A DNA stretch of 6,434 nt. Origin: a bacterium (GTDB lineage: Bacteria > ARS69). The translations under genes were made by a program, and so were the position numbers. The stretch is taken from contig JALGZR010000137.1 of assembly GCA_025774805.1 (NCBI GenBank), positions 1 to 6,434 of the forward strand, given 5' to 3'. Under the pieces are notes generated by a model. It searched no databases, was not told the DNA's origin, and saw only the letters and a program-made list of their open reading frames with translations. Positions 1,162 to 6,434 of the stretch are shown here, one piece after another; position 1 is the stretch's first letter; each line of letters starts with the position of its first letter.

Positions 1162-2607
1162 TCACTCGTCGAGGGGTCGCAGGAGAGGTCCTTCCTTGCG
1201 GTCCTCGACGGCGTAGCCGGCGGCGTGAATCCTCTCGCGGAGCGCGTCCGCGGCGGTCCAGTCCCTGGCCCGCCGCGCCTCCTCCCGCTGCCGGACGAGG
1301 GCAAGGACCCCCCCGGGGACCTTGCCGTCACCACTCCCGGACTCCGCGAAACCGATCCCGAGCAACGCGGTGGCCTCGCGGACCGTCTCTCCCGCCGCTC
1401 GGAGAAGCGCGCCGAAGTGGGGAGAGGTCTCCCCGGCCCGGAGGTATCCGTTCCCGACGCGCACGAGCTCGAAGATCTTCCCGATGGCGCTGGCGGAGTT
1501 GAAGTCGTCGTCGAGGGCCTCGTGGAACGAGCGTCGGGCCCGGTCGATCGCGGCGCGAAACTCGGAGTCGATCCCGGCGAGGTCGGCCGGATCGGGCGCG
1601 TCGGACGCTCCGGGCGCGGCGGCGTGCTCCGCCGCGCGCAAGAAGTTCACGATCCTCTCGAGCGCGGCCCCCGATTCCTCCAGACGTTCCTTCCTGTAGT
1701 CGATGGGGCTCCGGTAGTGGGTGGAGAGGAGATAGAGGCGGAGCGCTCGGGGATCGACCTCTTTCATCACGTCCGAGACCAGGAAGTAGACGCCGGTGGA
1801 CTTCGACATCTTCTCGCCGCCGAGGTTCACCATGCCGTTCTCGACCCAGTGGTTGCAGAACCGGTCTCCCGTGGCCGCCTCCGACTGGGCGAGCTCGTTC
1901 TCGTGGTGCGGAAAGATCAGATCCCTTCCGCCGCCGTGCAGGTCGACGACCCCGCCGAGGTACTTCGAGGCCATGACCGAGCACTCGATGTGCCAGCCCG
2001 GCCGGCCCGGACCCCACGGACTGTCCCACGCCGGCTCCCCGGGCTTCGCCGCCTTCCAGAGGGCGAAGTCGACCGGGTGGCGCTTGTTCTCGTCGACGTC
2101 GATCCGGACCCCGGCCCGGAGATCCTCGACCCGCTTGCCGGAGAGCTTCCCGTAATCGGGCTTGGACGTGACGTCGAAGAACACGCTCCCCTCGGAGGCG
2201 TACGCGTGCCCGCGGTCGACGAGGATCCCGATCATCTCGAGGATCTCGGGGATGTGCTTCGTCGCGCGCGGGTAGTGATCGGCCCGTTCGATCTCCATCC
2301 AGTCGGCCGCCTCGAAATAGGCATCAATGTTGCGCTGCGCGAACTCCCGGTAGTCGACCCCGGCCTCCTGGGCCTTGGCGATGATTTTGTCGTCGATGTC
2401 GGTGAAGTTCTGGATGAGCGTCACTTCGTATCCGCGCGCCCGGAAGACCCGGCGCATCAGGTCGGCCACGACGTAGGCCCTCATGTGCCCGACGTGGGGA
2501 GTGGCCTGAACGGTCATCCCGCACACGTAGATCCCCACGCGGTCCGGCTTGACCGGCTCGAAGGGAATCTTCTTCCGGCGCAGCGTGTCGTAGACTTGAA
2601 TGGCCAT
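1162..2607 (-). CDS. cysS: Cysteinyl-tRNA synthetase
   Basis: Class I aminoacyl-tRNA synthetase that charges tRNA-Cys with cysteine using ATP, in the cytoplasm. The product is 481 residues, slightly longer than E. coli CysRS (461). The HIGH signature appears as PHVGH (37-41) and the KMSKS loop as KMSKS (266-270). The four zinc ligands that select cysteine align as Cys29, Cys209 (in WHIECS), His234 and Glu238 (in FPHHENE). An all-alpha anticodon-binding part follows from about residue 305. The C-terminus (EDRKEGPLLRPL) matches the family's final anticodon-recognition segment. The ATG at 2607-2605 gives the expected start MAIQVYDTL. Its ribosome binding site is weak: GGGGAG lies 12 bases upstream, with a closer GGAA. 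It follows btpA after a 118-base gap and may be read from the same upstream transcript, since I see no promoter of its own. The TGA stop is at 1164-1162. Confidence 0.97.
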   Translation of the reverse strand: MAIQVYDTLRRKKIPFEPVKPDRVGIYVCGMTVQATPHVGHMRAYVVADLMRRVFRARGYEVTLIQNFTDIDDKIIAKAQEAGVDYREFAQRNIDAYFEAADWMEIERADHYPRATKHIPEILEMIGILVDRGHAYASEGSVFFDVTSKPDYGKLSGKRVEDLRAGVRIDVDENKRHPVDFALWKAAKPGEPAWDSPWGPGRPGWHIECSVMASKYLGGVVDLHGGGRDLIFPHHENELAQSEAATGDRFCNHWVENGMVNLGGEKMSKSTGVYFLVSDVMKEVDPRALRLYLLSTHYRSPIDYRKERLEESGAALERIVNFLRAAEHAAAPGASDAPDPADLAGIDSEFRAAIDRARRSFHEALDDDFNSASAIGKIFELVRVGNGYLRAGETSPHFGALLRAAGETVREATALLGIGFAESGSGDGKVPGGVLALVRQREEARRARDWTAADALRERIHAAGYAVEDRKEGPLLRPLDE

Positions 2608-2654: not shown

Positions 2655-2721
2655 CTAGCCCGGACTATTCATGAACGACCTGCTGCGATCGCGACGGCCC
2701 TTCATGAATAGCACGGGCTAG
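2655..2721. repeat. 67-base inverted repeat between btpA and cysS (REP/MITE-like)
   Basis: Two 21-base arms (2655-2675 and 2701-2721) are inverted copies of each other. An outer 8-bp block CTAGCCCG and an inner 11-bp block CTATTCATGAA match perfectly, separated by two imperfect positions. The 25-base loop contains the palindrome GCGATCGC (2685-2692). The inner block ends in TTCATGAA, itself a palindrome, and both outer ends are CTAG. It starts 4 bases after the btpA stop codon. No T-run follows on the minus strand, so it is not a classic terminator, although the RNA would form a strong hairpin. The A/T-rich inner block is unlike the surrounding GC-rich DNA. It could be a REP-like palindrome, a tiny non-autonomous transposon remnant or a 3'-end mRNA stabiliser. 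I cannot tell which without finding other copies. Confidence 0.9.
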
Positions 2722-2725
2722 CGAC

Positions 2726-3556
2726 TCACGTCGTCTGCTTCACCCGGCGCAGCCGGGCCGCGGCCTCGATCATCTCCCGCGCGCGCTCCCGATCGACCGG
2801 CGAGCGCGGATCCCCGTCCCGCTTCAGTGCCGATCCGACGATCATGCCATCGGAAACCGCCCAGAACTCCGCGAGGTTCCCGGCCGTGACTCCCGATCCG
2901 ACGAAGAGCGGCGTGTCGTCCAGAGCCTTTCTCACCCGGACGAGATCGGCCGGGTCGGCCCGCTCTCCGGTCGCGGCTCCCGAAAGGACCAGGGCGTCCG
3001 CGAGGCCGCGTCGCCGGGCGTCGCGAGCCTCCGCGACGAGAGCGTCGCCCTCGCCGGGAGCTCCCAGAGGACGGGCGTGCTTCACGCCCACGTCGGCGAA
3101 GACCAGGGCGGTGCTTCCGAGTGCCCGCCGGAGGAGCATCGTCTCGCGGGCGCGCCCCTCGATCACCCCCTGATCGGTCACTGCGGCCCCGACGTGGACG
3201 TTTACGCGGATGAAATCGGCCCCGGTGACCGCGGCGACGGACAGGGCGGCCTCCGCGTCGTTGCGGAGCACGTTGACCCCGAAGGGAACGTTGTGATCCC
3301 GGCGCAGCTCCCGACACACGATCGCCAGGGCGGCCACGGTGGTCGGGGGCACGCGGTCCTTCGCGAACGGAGCGTCCCCGAAGTTCTCCACGAGCATCCC
3401 GTCGACTCCGGCGGAGGTAAGGATCTCCGCATCGGCGCGGGCCGCATCCAGCGCGGTCTCGAGATCCCCGCCGGAGGGGCTCCCCGGGAGCGGCCGCAGG
3501 TGGATCATCCCCACGATCGGCCGCGCTCCGCCGAAGAGCCCGAGGACGGGATTCAC
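2726..3556 (-). CDS. btpA: BtpA/SgcQ-family TIM-barrel protein
   Basis: A 276-residue member of the BtpA family (PF03437-type TIM barrel). BtpA was named in cyanobacteria, where it is needed for stable photosystem I; E. coli SgcQ is a relative. The biochemical activity in most bacteria is unknown, and nothing here suggests photosynthesis. Family motifs seen are GMIHLRPLPGSP (16-27), VENFGDAPF (56-64), GVNVLRND (93-100), IRVNVHVGA with TDQG (116-130), ADVGVKHA (154-161), LSGAATG (191-197) and VGSGVTAGN (219-227). The start is the GTG at 3556-3554: the open frame continues 81 codons further upstream, but that part only overlaps ddl in another frame and has no family similarity. The GTG overlaps the ddl stop as GTGA, and AGGGGG lies 7 bases upstream. 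Family membership is clear; the gene name is used in the family sense only. Confidence 0.88.
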   Translation of the reverse strand: MNPVLGLFGGARPIVGMIHLRPLPGSPSGGDLETALDAARADAEILTSAGVDGMLVENFGDAPFAKDRVPPTTVAALAIVCRELRRDHNVPFGVNVLRNDAEAALSVAAVTGADFIRVNVHVGAAVTDQGVIEGRARETMLLRRALGSTALVFADVGVKHARPLGAPGEGDALVAEARDARRRGLADALVLSGAATGERADPADLVRVRKALDDTPLFVGSGVTAGNLAEFWAVSDGMIVGSALKRDGDPRSPVDRERAREMIEAAARLRRVKQTT

Positions 3557-4644
3557 CCCGCCGCCCCCTGTTTCGCCGGATGGCCCGCCGGATGGGGAGC
3601 CGGCCCGCCCCGGCGGGGGCCGCGCGCGATGGCGGACTCGATGATGCGCTCGACGAGCTCCTCGAACGAGATTCCCCTCGCCTTCGCCGCCATGGGAACG
3701 AGGGAGAGCGGCGTCAGTCCCGGAATCGTGTTGATCTCCAGACAGTAGAACGTGGAGTCGGGGGCGAGACGGTAGTCCACCCGGGCGAAGCCCTCGCACC
3801 GGAGCGCGTGGAATGCGGCGAGGGCGCTCAGGCGGATCCGGGCGGCGAGGTCCCCCGGCAGATCGGCGGGCACCTCGTAGCGACTCCGGCCCGGAGTGTA
3901 CTTGGCCTCGTAGCTGTAAACGCCTTCCTCCGGGACGATCTCGACGATCGGAAGCGCCTCGTCATCCAGGATGGCCACGGTCAGCTCCCGCCCGGGCACG
4001 TATCGCTCGAGCAGGACGCGCCGACCGTAGCGGGCGGCCTTCTCGACGGCGGGAAAGGGATCCTCTCCGCGCTTCACCACCGTGAGCCCGACGGTCGACC
4101 CCTGTTCGTTCGGCTTGACGACGATGTCGCTCGAGAGCTCCCGGGCCAGCGCGGCGACGTCGCTCTTCGTCGGGAGATGCTCGGGATCCCACTCGACCAT
4201 GCGCCACTCGGGGGTGGGGACTCCCGCCGTGCCGAACACCCGCTTCGCCCGGTCCTTGTCCATGGCCAGGGCGGAGCCGAGAACGCCGCTTCCCGTGTAC
4301 GGAAGTCCGAGTATCTCGAAGAAGGCCTGCACGGTGCCGTTCTCGCCCCACCCCCCGTGAAGGGCGATGAAGACCGCGTCGACGTCCGCCAGCGACCCGG
4401 CGAGCTCCTTCATCGCGGAGGAACCGGAGAGAGCGAGCGCCCCCTCCCCGGTCTCGCTTCCGGGAGGACGCTCGCCGATCCGCGGAGTCTCTCCGGCACC
4501 GAGCGCCAGTACGCCCTCGCGTGTGTCGAGCAGCGTCACCTGGTGACCCCGATCGGCGAGGGCGCGCGCCACGGCGGTTCCCGTCACCCGTGAGACGTCC
4601 CTCTCTTCACTCTCTCCCCCCATCAGGACCGCGATCCGTTTCAA
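3553..4644 (-). CDS. ddl: D-alanine--D-alanine ligase
   Basis: ATP-grasp enzyme that joins two D-alanines for peptidoglycan precursor synthesis in the cytoplasm. The product is 363 residues, longer than E. coli DdlB (306), owing to a variable stretch near residues 44-80 and a Pro/Ala/Gly-rich tail after about 342. The N-terminal motif GGESEERDVS carries the conserved Glu14; HGGWGENGT (96-104) follows. The ATP-grasp core shows VVKPNEQGSTVG (175-186, Ser183), EAKY (246-249), GFARVD (285-290, Arg288 and Asp290) and EINTIPGLTPLSLVP (303-317, Glu303, Asn305, Ser314). All match known substrate or Mg-ATP residues. I chose the TTG start at 4644-4642: it has AAAGGAG 7 bases upstream, gives the expected KRIAVLMGG N-terminus and overlaps the GNAT stop as TTGA. 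An upstream ATG at 4911 would add 89 residues read out of frame from the GNAT gene and is rejected. Confidence 0.96.
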   Translation of the reverse strand: MKRIAVLMGGESEERDVSRVTGTAVARALADRGHQVTLLDTREGVLALGAGETPRIGERPPGSETGEGALALSGSSAMKELAGSLADVDAVFIALHGGWGENGTVQAFFEILGLPYTGSGVLGSALAMDKDRAKRVFGTAGVPTPEWRMVEWDPEHLPTKSDVAALARELSSDIVVKPNEQGSTVGLTVVKRGEDPFPAVEKAARYGRRVLLERYVPGRELTVAILDDEALPIVEIVPEEGVYSYEAKYTPGRSRYEVPADLPGDLAARIRLSALAAFHALRCEGFARVDYRLAPDSTFYCLEINTIPGLTPLSLVPMAAKARGISFEELVERIIESAIARGPRRGGPAPHPAGHPAKQGAAG

Positions 4645-5270
4645 GGCTCGACTCCTTTCGACTTGTCCGCGGGGGACGTCCCGGGGATCACCCCGGCGGG
4701 ATCCGCTGCGTTCGCCGAATCCGGAGATGCCGGGGACGCGGCGGAAGCGGCCTTGGGGCCGGGCCCGCCGACTTCGGGGGTCTTCGTGAGCTCGATCCAG
4801 CTCTCGGCGAGGAAGTCCTCCGCCCCCAGATCTCTCCAGAACGCAAGGGCCGACTCGCTCCGGACGGCCACGTGCATGCGGGCCGCGTCCAGACCCTTCG
4901 CGGTCAGCCATTCCGCCACCCGGTGGTAGAGCCGGCGACCGATCCCGCGACGGCGGGAGACCGGATCGACCACCAGGTCGGAGACGTAGCCGAAGCGTCG
5001 GAGCTCGAAGAAGGAGTCCTGGGTCCGGACCGAGCCGATGATGAGGCCGACGACACGCCCCCCTCCTTCGGCCACGAACACCGCGGAGTCGAGGTGACGC
5101 ATGCGATCCCGAAGATAGAGAGCGTAGCGCGCACGGGCGTCGGTTCGGAGGCGGAACCTCTCGTCCACGCGCTCCTGCGCCTTCATCTCTTCGTGGGCGA
5201 GGTCGAGAATCGCCTCCTCGTCGGCGTCCCGGGCCGCCCGCACCGTCACGTCGCTCGTCGCTTCGCTCAT
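4641..5270 (-). CDS. GNAT-family N-acetyltransferase with disordered tail
   Basis: A 209-residue protein with one GNAT domain (about 7-163) that should transfer an acyl group from acetyl-CoA to an amine; the substrate cannot be read from sequence. Motif A, the CoA pyrophosphate-binding loop, is YVSDLVVDPVSRRRGIGRRL (95-114) and contains RxxGxG. The preceding strands hold AVFVAEGGGRVVGLIIG (63-79), and motif B appears as SESALAFWRDLGAED (138-152). Residues from about 165 to the end form a low-complexity Ala/Pro/Ser/Gly tail, probably disordered. The ATG at 5270-5268 overlaps the ispDF stop as ATGA, with GGAG 5 bases upstream. Its open frame extends far upstream but only as an Arg-rich shadow of ispDF. 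Co-translation with ispDF and ddl suggests shared expression, not necessarily a shared pathway. Confidence 0.9.
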   Translation of the reverse strand: MSEATSDVTVRAARDADEEAILDLAHEEMKAQERVDERFRLRTDARARYALYLRDRMRHLDSAVFVAEGGGRVVGLIIGSVRTQDSFFELRRFGYVSDLVVDPVSRRRGIGRRLYHRVAEWLTAKGLDAARMHVAVRSESALAFWRDLGAEDFLAESWIELTKTPEVGGPGPKAASAASPASPDSANAADPAGVIPGTSPADKSKGVEP

Positions 5271-6434
5271 TCCGACTCCGGCACCACGGGAATCCTCCCG
5301 ATCAGGACCACGGCGGTCGCCGAGATTCCCTCGCCACGCCCCTCGAATCCGAGTCGCTCCGTGGTGGTGAACTTCACGGAGACCCGCTCCGGCGGGAGCC
5401 GGAGCGCCCGTGACAGCGTCTCGATCATTCCGTCGCGGTAGGGGGCGAGGCGGGGCGCCTGGGCGATGACCGTGGCGTCCACGTTCACGGGAACGTAACC
5501 CGTTTCCCGCAGAATCTCCACCGTCCGCGCGAGGAGCTCCCCGCCGGACGCGTCCTTCCACGCCTCCTCGGAGTCGGGAAAGTGCACCCCGAGGTCGCCG
5601 GCGGCGGCGGCCCCGAGCAGCGCGTCGCAGACCGCATGGGAGAGAACGTCCGCGTCGGAGTGACCCAGGAGCCCGCTTTCGGCGGGAATCTTCACCCCGC
5701 CCAGAACGAGAGCCCGCCCCTCCACGAGGCGATGGGCGTCGTATCCGGTCCCGATCCTCACCTGGCGGGGCGGCGACTCCCCGCGCAGCAGGGCCTCCGC
5801 GATCGCCAGATCCTCGGGAACCGTCACCTTGAGATTGAGGCGATCTCCCTCGACGATCGCGACCTCTCCCCCTACCCGTTCGACGGCGGCCGCCTCGTCG
5901 GTCGGCTCGTACCCGTCCCGCTTCGCGGACGCGAGCGCCTTCGCGAGAAGGTCCCGCCGGAACCCCTGGGGGGTCTGGGCCTCGCGCAGCGAACCACGAT
6001 CGAGAGTTCCGGCCGACACGCCGTCCTCCTCGCGCTTGATCGTCGCGACCGGAGGCACTCCGGGAATCGCGGCCCCTCGCGCGCTCGCCGCCTCGACGAC
6101 CCGACGGATCAGCTCCTCGGACACGAGGGGGCGCGCACCGTCGTGCACGAGAACGAGATCGACCTCGGAGGGAAGCGCCGCCGTTCCGAACCGGGAGGAC
6201 TCGGTTCGGGTGGCGCCTCCTCGAACCACGCGTCGCACTTTCGACGGACCCATCGCCTCGATGAGCTCCTGGACGCGCTGCACTCGATCGGATCGGACCA
6301 CTACGACGACGTCGTCGACGACGTCGCACGCGGAAAAGGCTCGAACCGAGTGAAAGAGGAGGGGAGTCCCCGCAAGAGGGGTCAGCATCTTGTCGATGCC
6401 CCCCATGCGTTCGGAGCTTCCGGCGGCGACGATC
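5267..6434 (-). CDS. ispDF: Bifunctional IspD/IspF (MEP isoprenoid pathway), 5' end outside window
   Basis: A fusion of two cytoplasmic MEP-pathway enzymes: IspD (makes CDP-methylerythritol from MEP and CTP) and IspF (makes the cyclic diphosphate MEcPP). About 388 residues are in the window. The frame runs to the right edge, where it reads IVAAGSSERMGG, the IspD CTP-binding loop, so only a few N-terminal residues are missing. The ATG at 6406 lies inside this motif and is not the start. Counting from that Met, IspD shows RTESS (67-71), VHDGARP (87-93), AQTPQGF (143-149), TDEAAAVE (169-176) and NLKVTVPEDL (191-200). IspF begins near 216 with GTGYDAHR (219-226; zinc ligands Asp223, His225), HSDADVLSH (249-257; zinc ligand His257), HFPD (275-278) and TTTERLGFEGRGEG (347-360). 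The linker is very short. Its stop overlaps the GNAT start. Confidence 0.96.
   Translation of the reverse strand, partial: IVAAGSSERMGGIDKMLTPLAGTPLLFHSVRAFSACDVVDDVVVVVRSDRVQRVQELIEAMGPSKVRRVVRGGATRTESSRFGTAALPSEVDLVLVHDGARPLVSEELIRRVVEAASARGAAIPGVPPVATIKREEDGVSAGTLDRGSLREAQTPQGFRRDLLAKALASAKRDGYEPTDEAAAVERVGGEVAIVEGDRLNLKVTVPEDLAIAEALLRGESPPRQVRIGTGYDAHRLVEGRALVLGGVKIPAESGLLGHSDADVLSHAVCDALLGAAAAGDLGVHFPDSEEAWKDASGGELLARTVEILRETGYVPVNVDATVIAQAPRLAPYRDGMIETLSRALRLPPERVSVKFTTTERLGFEGRGEGISATAVVLIGRIPVVPESE

Follow-up and report, generated by a model that had tools for sequence, protein, structure and literature searches.

An internally deleted copy of a foldback MITE with IS1380-type ends between btpA and cysS

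The inverted repeat that follows btpA in the window, the 6,434-nt stretch of bacterial contig JALGZR010000137.1 (assembly GCA_025774805.1) analysed here, is very probably a copy of a non-autonomous foldback MITE that inserts at YTAR with duplication of these 4 bases and whose ends an IS1380-family transposase (ISBdi2/ISSp1 type) would recognise. The family is present in many copies in its own genome, and elements with the same ends and flanking duplications recur across phyla. Whether the hairpin is maintained beyond its ends is a more tentative question, which is considered last.

Results

Geometry and fold of the hairpin

The original prediction of a large near-perfect inverted repeat at 2655-2721 was confirmed. 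Two 21-base arms (2655-2675 and 2701-2721), complementary at 19 of 21 positions, enclose a 25-base loop that holds the palindrome GCGATCGC; CTAG stands at both borders, and the repeat begins 4 bases past the btpA stop codon (2726-2728). The arm mismatches form one 2-base block, in which the left arm has GA and the right arm has CA instead of the expected TC, because the right end of this copy carries a private 2-base change. Folded as operon-strand RNA, the hairpin has a free energy of -43.4 kcal/mol (z = -9.9), and 0 shuffles were as good. Chance is ruled out mainly because both halves of the hairpin recur genome-wide: a genome search with 87 bases around the element returned 95 matching pieces, several of which are identical across 39-40 nt of the left half. 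The features are summarized in Table 1.

Table 1. Features of the element and its neighbouring genes in the window.
Feature	Position	Strand	Basis
btpA, preceding the element on the operon strand (start codon not fixed)	2726..3571	-	Pfam BtpA 8.9e-82
cysS, downstream of the element	1162..2607	-	Pfam tRNA-synt_1e 7.9e-121
67-bp internally deleted MITE copy, subfamily A, both CTAG included	2655..2721		left 39 nt identical to 1-39 of the 185-bp unit; right 33 nt 94% identical to 153-185
CTAG, left copy of the 4-bp target duplication	2655..2658		YTAR duplications flank the family
Left terminal inverted repeat CCCGGACTATTCATGAA	2659..2675	+	
Remaining interior with putative deletion junction at shared TCGCG (2689-2693)	2676..2700		left and right matches overlap in exactly these 5 bases
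Right terminal inverted repeat, 2 substitutions relative to the family end	2701..2717	-	
CTAG, right copy of the 4-bp target duplication	2718..2721		YTAR duplications flank the family

A dispersed MITE family in the same genome

The left 39 and right 33 bases of the element recur at many loci of its genome, normally ~150 bp apart. The search revealed ~40 dispersed copies on many contigs, hence a repeat family and not a single copy. Subfamily A, with a unit of 185 bp, is young and has many copies that are 98-100% identical, while subfamily B has a unit of 184 bp and copies with 87-98% identity. Intact copies end in YTAR and CCCGGACTATTCATGAA, and the terminal inverted repeats span 17 bp, or 21 when the target copy is counted. 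The unit has no ORF (longest open stretch, 59 codons) and matches its own reverse complement along the whole length at ~75%, which identifies it as a foldback element. When the flanks were joined by script, 1 of 28 insertion sites looked coding, compared with 365 of 466 control positions. The earlier suggestion of a MITE is therefore borne out by dispersed intergenic copies, terminal inverted repeats and target-site duplications in an element that is short and lacks a coding gene.

The window copy as a deletion derivative

The two parts of the window copy, which correspond to unit positions 1-39 and 153-185, overlap in TCGCG. This junction fits a deletion between two TCGCG repeats that removed ~118 bp of the interior at a 5-base microhomology. 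Such an interior deletion leaves the two ends close together, so that the proposal of a decayed element's joined ends was right in this one sense. It is highly improbable that the 67-bp form is instead an assembly artefact of a full-length copy. Several young copies in the same assembly (G000 C87:41560-41805, C266, C55, C63, C50, C105 and C261) do break near unit position 113 or 73, and 20 N stand between the two 113-base arms of one young copy; these cuts are probably assembly gaps. The breakpoint of the window copy, however, lies elsewhere (39/153) and at the microhomology, the copy has private substitutions, its 67 bp are shorter than the usual short-read length, and other deletion copies with different breakpoints exist (C130 and C218). 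Owing to the different breakpoint and a length within ordinary reads, the deletion in the 67-bp copy is taken as real from the assembled sequence.

The events at this locus can be modelled as follows. An IS1380-family transposase would recognise the CCCGGACTATTCATGAA ends, insert the MITE at YTAR and duplicate those 4 bases; the window copy, a member of the younger subfamily A, would have landed at CTAG between btpA and cysS; and the ~118-bp interior would have been deleted between the TCGCG repeats after insertion, leaving the 67-bp hairpin.

Gene setting and empty sites in relatives

The window contains cysS, btpA, ddl, a GNAT gene and a fused ispDF on the minus strand. As all five are on this strand, the element sits between two genes read in the same way, and transcription in the ddl-btpA-cysS direction probably includes it. 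The gaps between btpA and cysS in distant relatives were compared at the level of gene spacing, and the element is missing in both cases: in relative G004 the btpA stop and the cysS start share bases (TGATG), and the spacing is ~12 nt in relative G001. The end motif was found in 0 of 4 other genomes of the phylum. Gene spacing and the result from these four genomes support an insertion in the lineage of the window.

A stable operon-strand hairpin directly after the btpA stop might also be read as a local regulatory hairpin acting to stabilise the btpA and cysS messages or keep them apart. We consider this very unlikely, because the hairpin's sequence is present at ~40 other places and is absent from this site in the two relatives; in addition, no T-run was found after the stem, which led us to reject an intrinsic terminator. 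A known RNA family was rejected as well, as no Rfam family matched at the gathering threshold. For the inserted MITE copy, the putative effect of the hairpin could at most be to stabilise or separate transcript segments.

Elsewhere in the window, the IspD and YgbB (IspF) domains share one reading frame (5267-6433). Minus-strand tRNA genes lie at 363-435, 469-542, 633-715 and 821-892 (within 1-900), and 1-113 holds, judged by eye, the beginning of a tuf-like gene.

Ends and target duplications across phyla

At least 116 stretches of GTDB genomes contain the pattern YTARCCCGSANTATTCATGAA, versus ~4 expected by chance according to our own estimate. The hosts among the matches listed include Nitrospira, Myxococcota, Planctomycetota, Acidobacteriota, Gammaproteobacteria, Zetaproteobacteria, Krumholzibacteriia and Eisenbacteria, and most of the internal matches listed form inverted end pairs, commonly 165-230 bp apart. 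The flanking 4-mers are identical in 40 of 66 end pairs versus 20.0 in shuffles (maximum 31 in 10,000), and pairs flanked on both sides by the non-palindromic TTAG or CTAA are direct in 8 cases and inverted in 1. The flanking YTAR repeats are true 4-bp target-site duplications, which occur as CTAG, TTAA, TTAG and CTAA. Insertion into palindromic targets was rejected, as the flank complementarity is 84 versus 81.9 in shuffles. The 67-bp element gave only weak partial matches against plasmids, and one sample element searched against plasmids and one against phages gave no matches.

(Nearly) perfect 26-bp palindromes composed of two overlapping ends (CCCGGATTATTCATGAATAATCCGGG type) were also observed at L105 3087-3112, L142, L180, L196, L199 and L208; these possibly stem from deletion between two TTCATGAA cores. 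In seven genomes of other phyla (G021, G023, G027, G028, G029, G032 and G033), the motif CCCGSNNNNNTCATGA (at most 1 mismatch) is ~2-11 times as frequent as its reversed control.

Attribution to the IS1380 family

On plasmids, the ends of complete IS1380-family elements read CTAG followed by CCCGTCTTATTCGT, CCGCTCTTATTCAC or CCCGCCTTATTC, or CTAA followed by CCCATCTTATGCAC, with duplications of CTAG or CTAA. Ends of complete elements of the family also include CTAG followed by CCCGTCTTATTCGTCAGAG or CCCGCCTTATTCGCGAGAG, again with duplications of CTAG or CTAA, and the end of a Sphingobium IS1380 element is CCCGGCTTATTCATGAG. These ends closely resemble those of the MITE and are not equal to them. 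The ends of IS1380A and of the Nostoc elements compared are more distant and have other 4-bp flanks, which confines the likeness to the ISBdi2/ISSp1 type and not the whole IS1380 family. Some IS1380 elements have been reported with 5-bp duplications (PMC3281130, PMC4133298). Ca. Euphemobacter has the exact MITE end a short distance upstream of an IS1380 transposase remnant, and two further genomes have similar ends next to IS1380 remnants. Judged by ends and target, the attribution to IS1380 is strong, and an IS1380 transposase is presumably the mobilising enzyme.

No complete IS1380 element with the ends of the MITE was found in its own genome, in which repeats are poorly assembled. PF13701 is represented in this fragmented assembly by a C-terminal fragment only, which was rejected as the source element since no MITE ends surround it. 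Two other identities that had been suggested for the repeat were discarded. An IS630 origin, proposed on account of the CTAG borders, conflicts with the duplication of 4-bp YTAR (direct TTAG/TTAG and CTAA/CTAA included) and not TA, and with ends that match the IS1380 family. Elements of ~185 bp with target duplications argue against a REP unit, and a search of the genome for PF01797 (RAYT, Y1 transposase) gave no match.

Relation to known elements

The ISBdi2/ISSp1-type elements of IS1380 share with the MITE the YTAR-CCCGNCTTATTC-type ends and the 4-bp YTAR duplications; in contrast, they are ~1.6 kb long and carry a transposase gene, whereas the MITE has no gene and is a full-length palindrome. 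REP/REPIN sequences with RAYT are likewise palindromic intergenic repeats bordered by a tetranucleotide, but differ in the length, target duplications and transposase considered above. The palindromic MITEs ERIC, YPAL and Correia are, like the present element, short, intergenic and multi-copy, and form a single hairpin. They have other ends and targets, however, and are known from narrower groups, while the present end and apical motif recur across phyla. The eukaryotic piggyBac elements, compared by target alone, duplicate TTAA, which is covered by the YTAR of the MITE. IS1380 transposases have served as an outgroup for piggyBac (PMC10813416).

Searches of Rfam and the open-access literature with the end and apical sequences found no description, which is not proof of absence. 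MITEs are a known kind of element, and the present group with its cross-phylum apical motif is apparently undescribed. YTAR with CCCGSANTATTCATGAA provides a searchable signature for a MITE group with IS1380-type ends in many phyla. For annotation, such hairpins after genes should not be called terminators or riboregulators without a test.

Possible maintenance of the hairpin

The consensus from the window's genome aligns over its full length, at ~70%, with elements of Desulfobacteraceae, Nitrospira and Krumholzibacteriia. When 51 elements from many phyla were folded, nearly all formed one full-length hairpin, mostly of -75 to -165 kcal/mol, and an apical motif of the form CTCGACGTACTG-loop-CAAGTACGCCTCGG was recognisable in 29 of the 51. 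Five consensus apical pairs, which were picked on an alignment that was anchored by a seed motif and included copies from the window's genome, show 13 both-side changes versus 1 one-side change. Pairwise change counts between elements used pairs kept by both folds only. A model of the apical part matched loci outside its training set, mostly inside end-bounded elements, including those of Binatota and Myxococcota. A low G-U content was not used as proof of pairing at the DNA level, as the drop is moderate (4.8-7.7% versus 10.9% in shuffles).

Paired changes were also observed within single copies. In the 21 outer pairs of subfamily B, 24 both-side changes in about ten distinct combinations were found versus 5.8 in shuffles. 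They cluster at unit positions 11-15, between the conserved CCCGGA and CATGAA, and copies with the same private changes at both ends include G000 C11:33906, C262:42402, C8:108709, C87:772 and C19:44649. Arm-to-arm repair or selection on pairing may lie behind these matching changes.

From these data, we tentatively propose, at somewhat less than even probability, a cross-phylum foldback family whose hairpin is maintained beyond the ends: paired changes would preserve both the apical motif CGACGTACTG..CAGTACGCC and the complementarity of the arms, whether through the need for a folded DNA or RNA form or through repair of one arm by the other. A rival reading takes the element as structured and conserved, either ncRNA-like or serving as a folded single-stranded DNA substrate, with selection acting on the hairpin itself and IS1380 only spreading it. 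This reading draws on the same single-hairpin folds, apical pairs and outer-pair changes and on the further elements found by the apical model. We regard it as unlikely, given that the interior pairs in copies of the window's genome mostly break (75 breaking single changes versus 5 paired double changes in subfamily B), that a closed Acidobacteriota genome shows no co-variation between the two ends, and that Rfam holds no matching family at its gathering threshold. The Acidobacteriota result also led us to reject end co-variation as a general rule. The foldback MITE family is a natural test case of how a long DNA palindrome keeps its two arms complementary over time.

Three copies of the window's genome (C8b, C236a and C247) have paired changes at the central TA of their target duplication, a hint of arm-to-arm repair after insertion; the outer two bases of the duplication were excluded as evidence, since the choice of target can alter them. 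In copy C261a (G000 C261:26149-26283), the flanks lengthen the palindrome by 9 bases (CCATGGCGG / CCGCCATGG), which is not the case in other copies.
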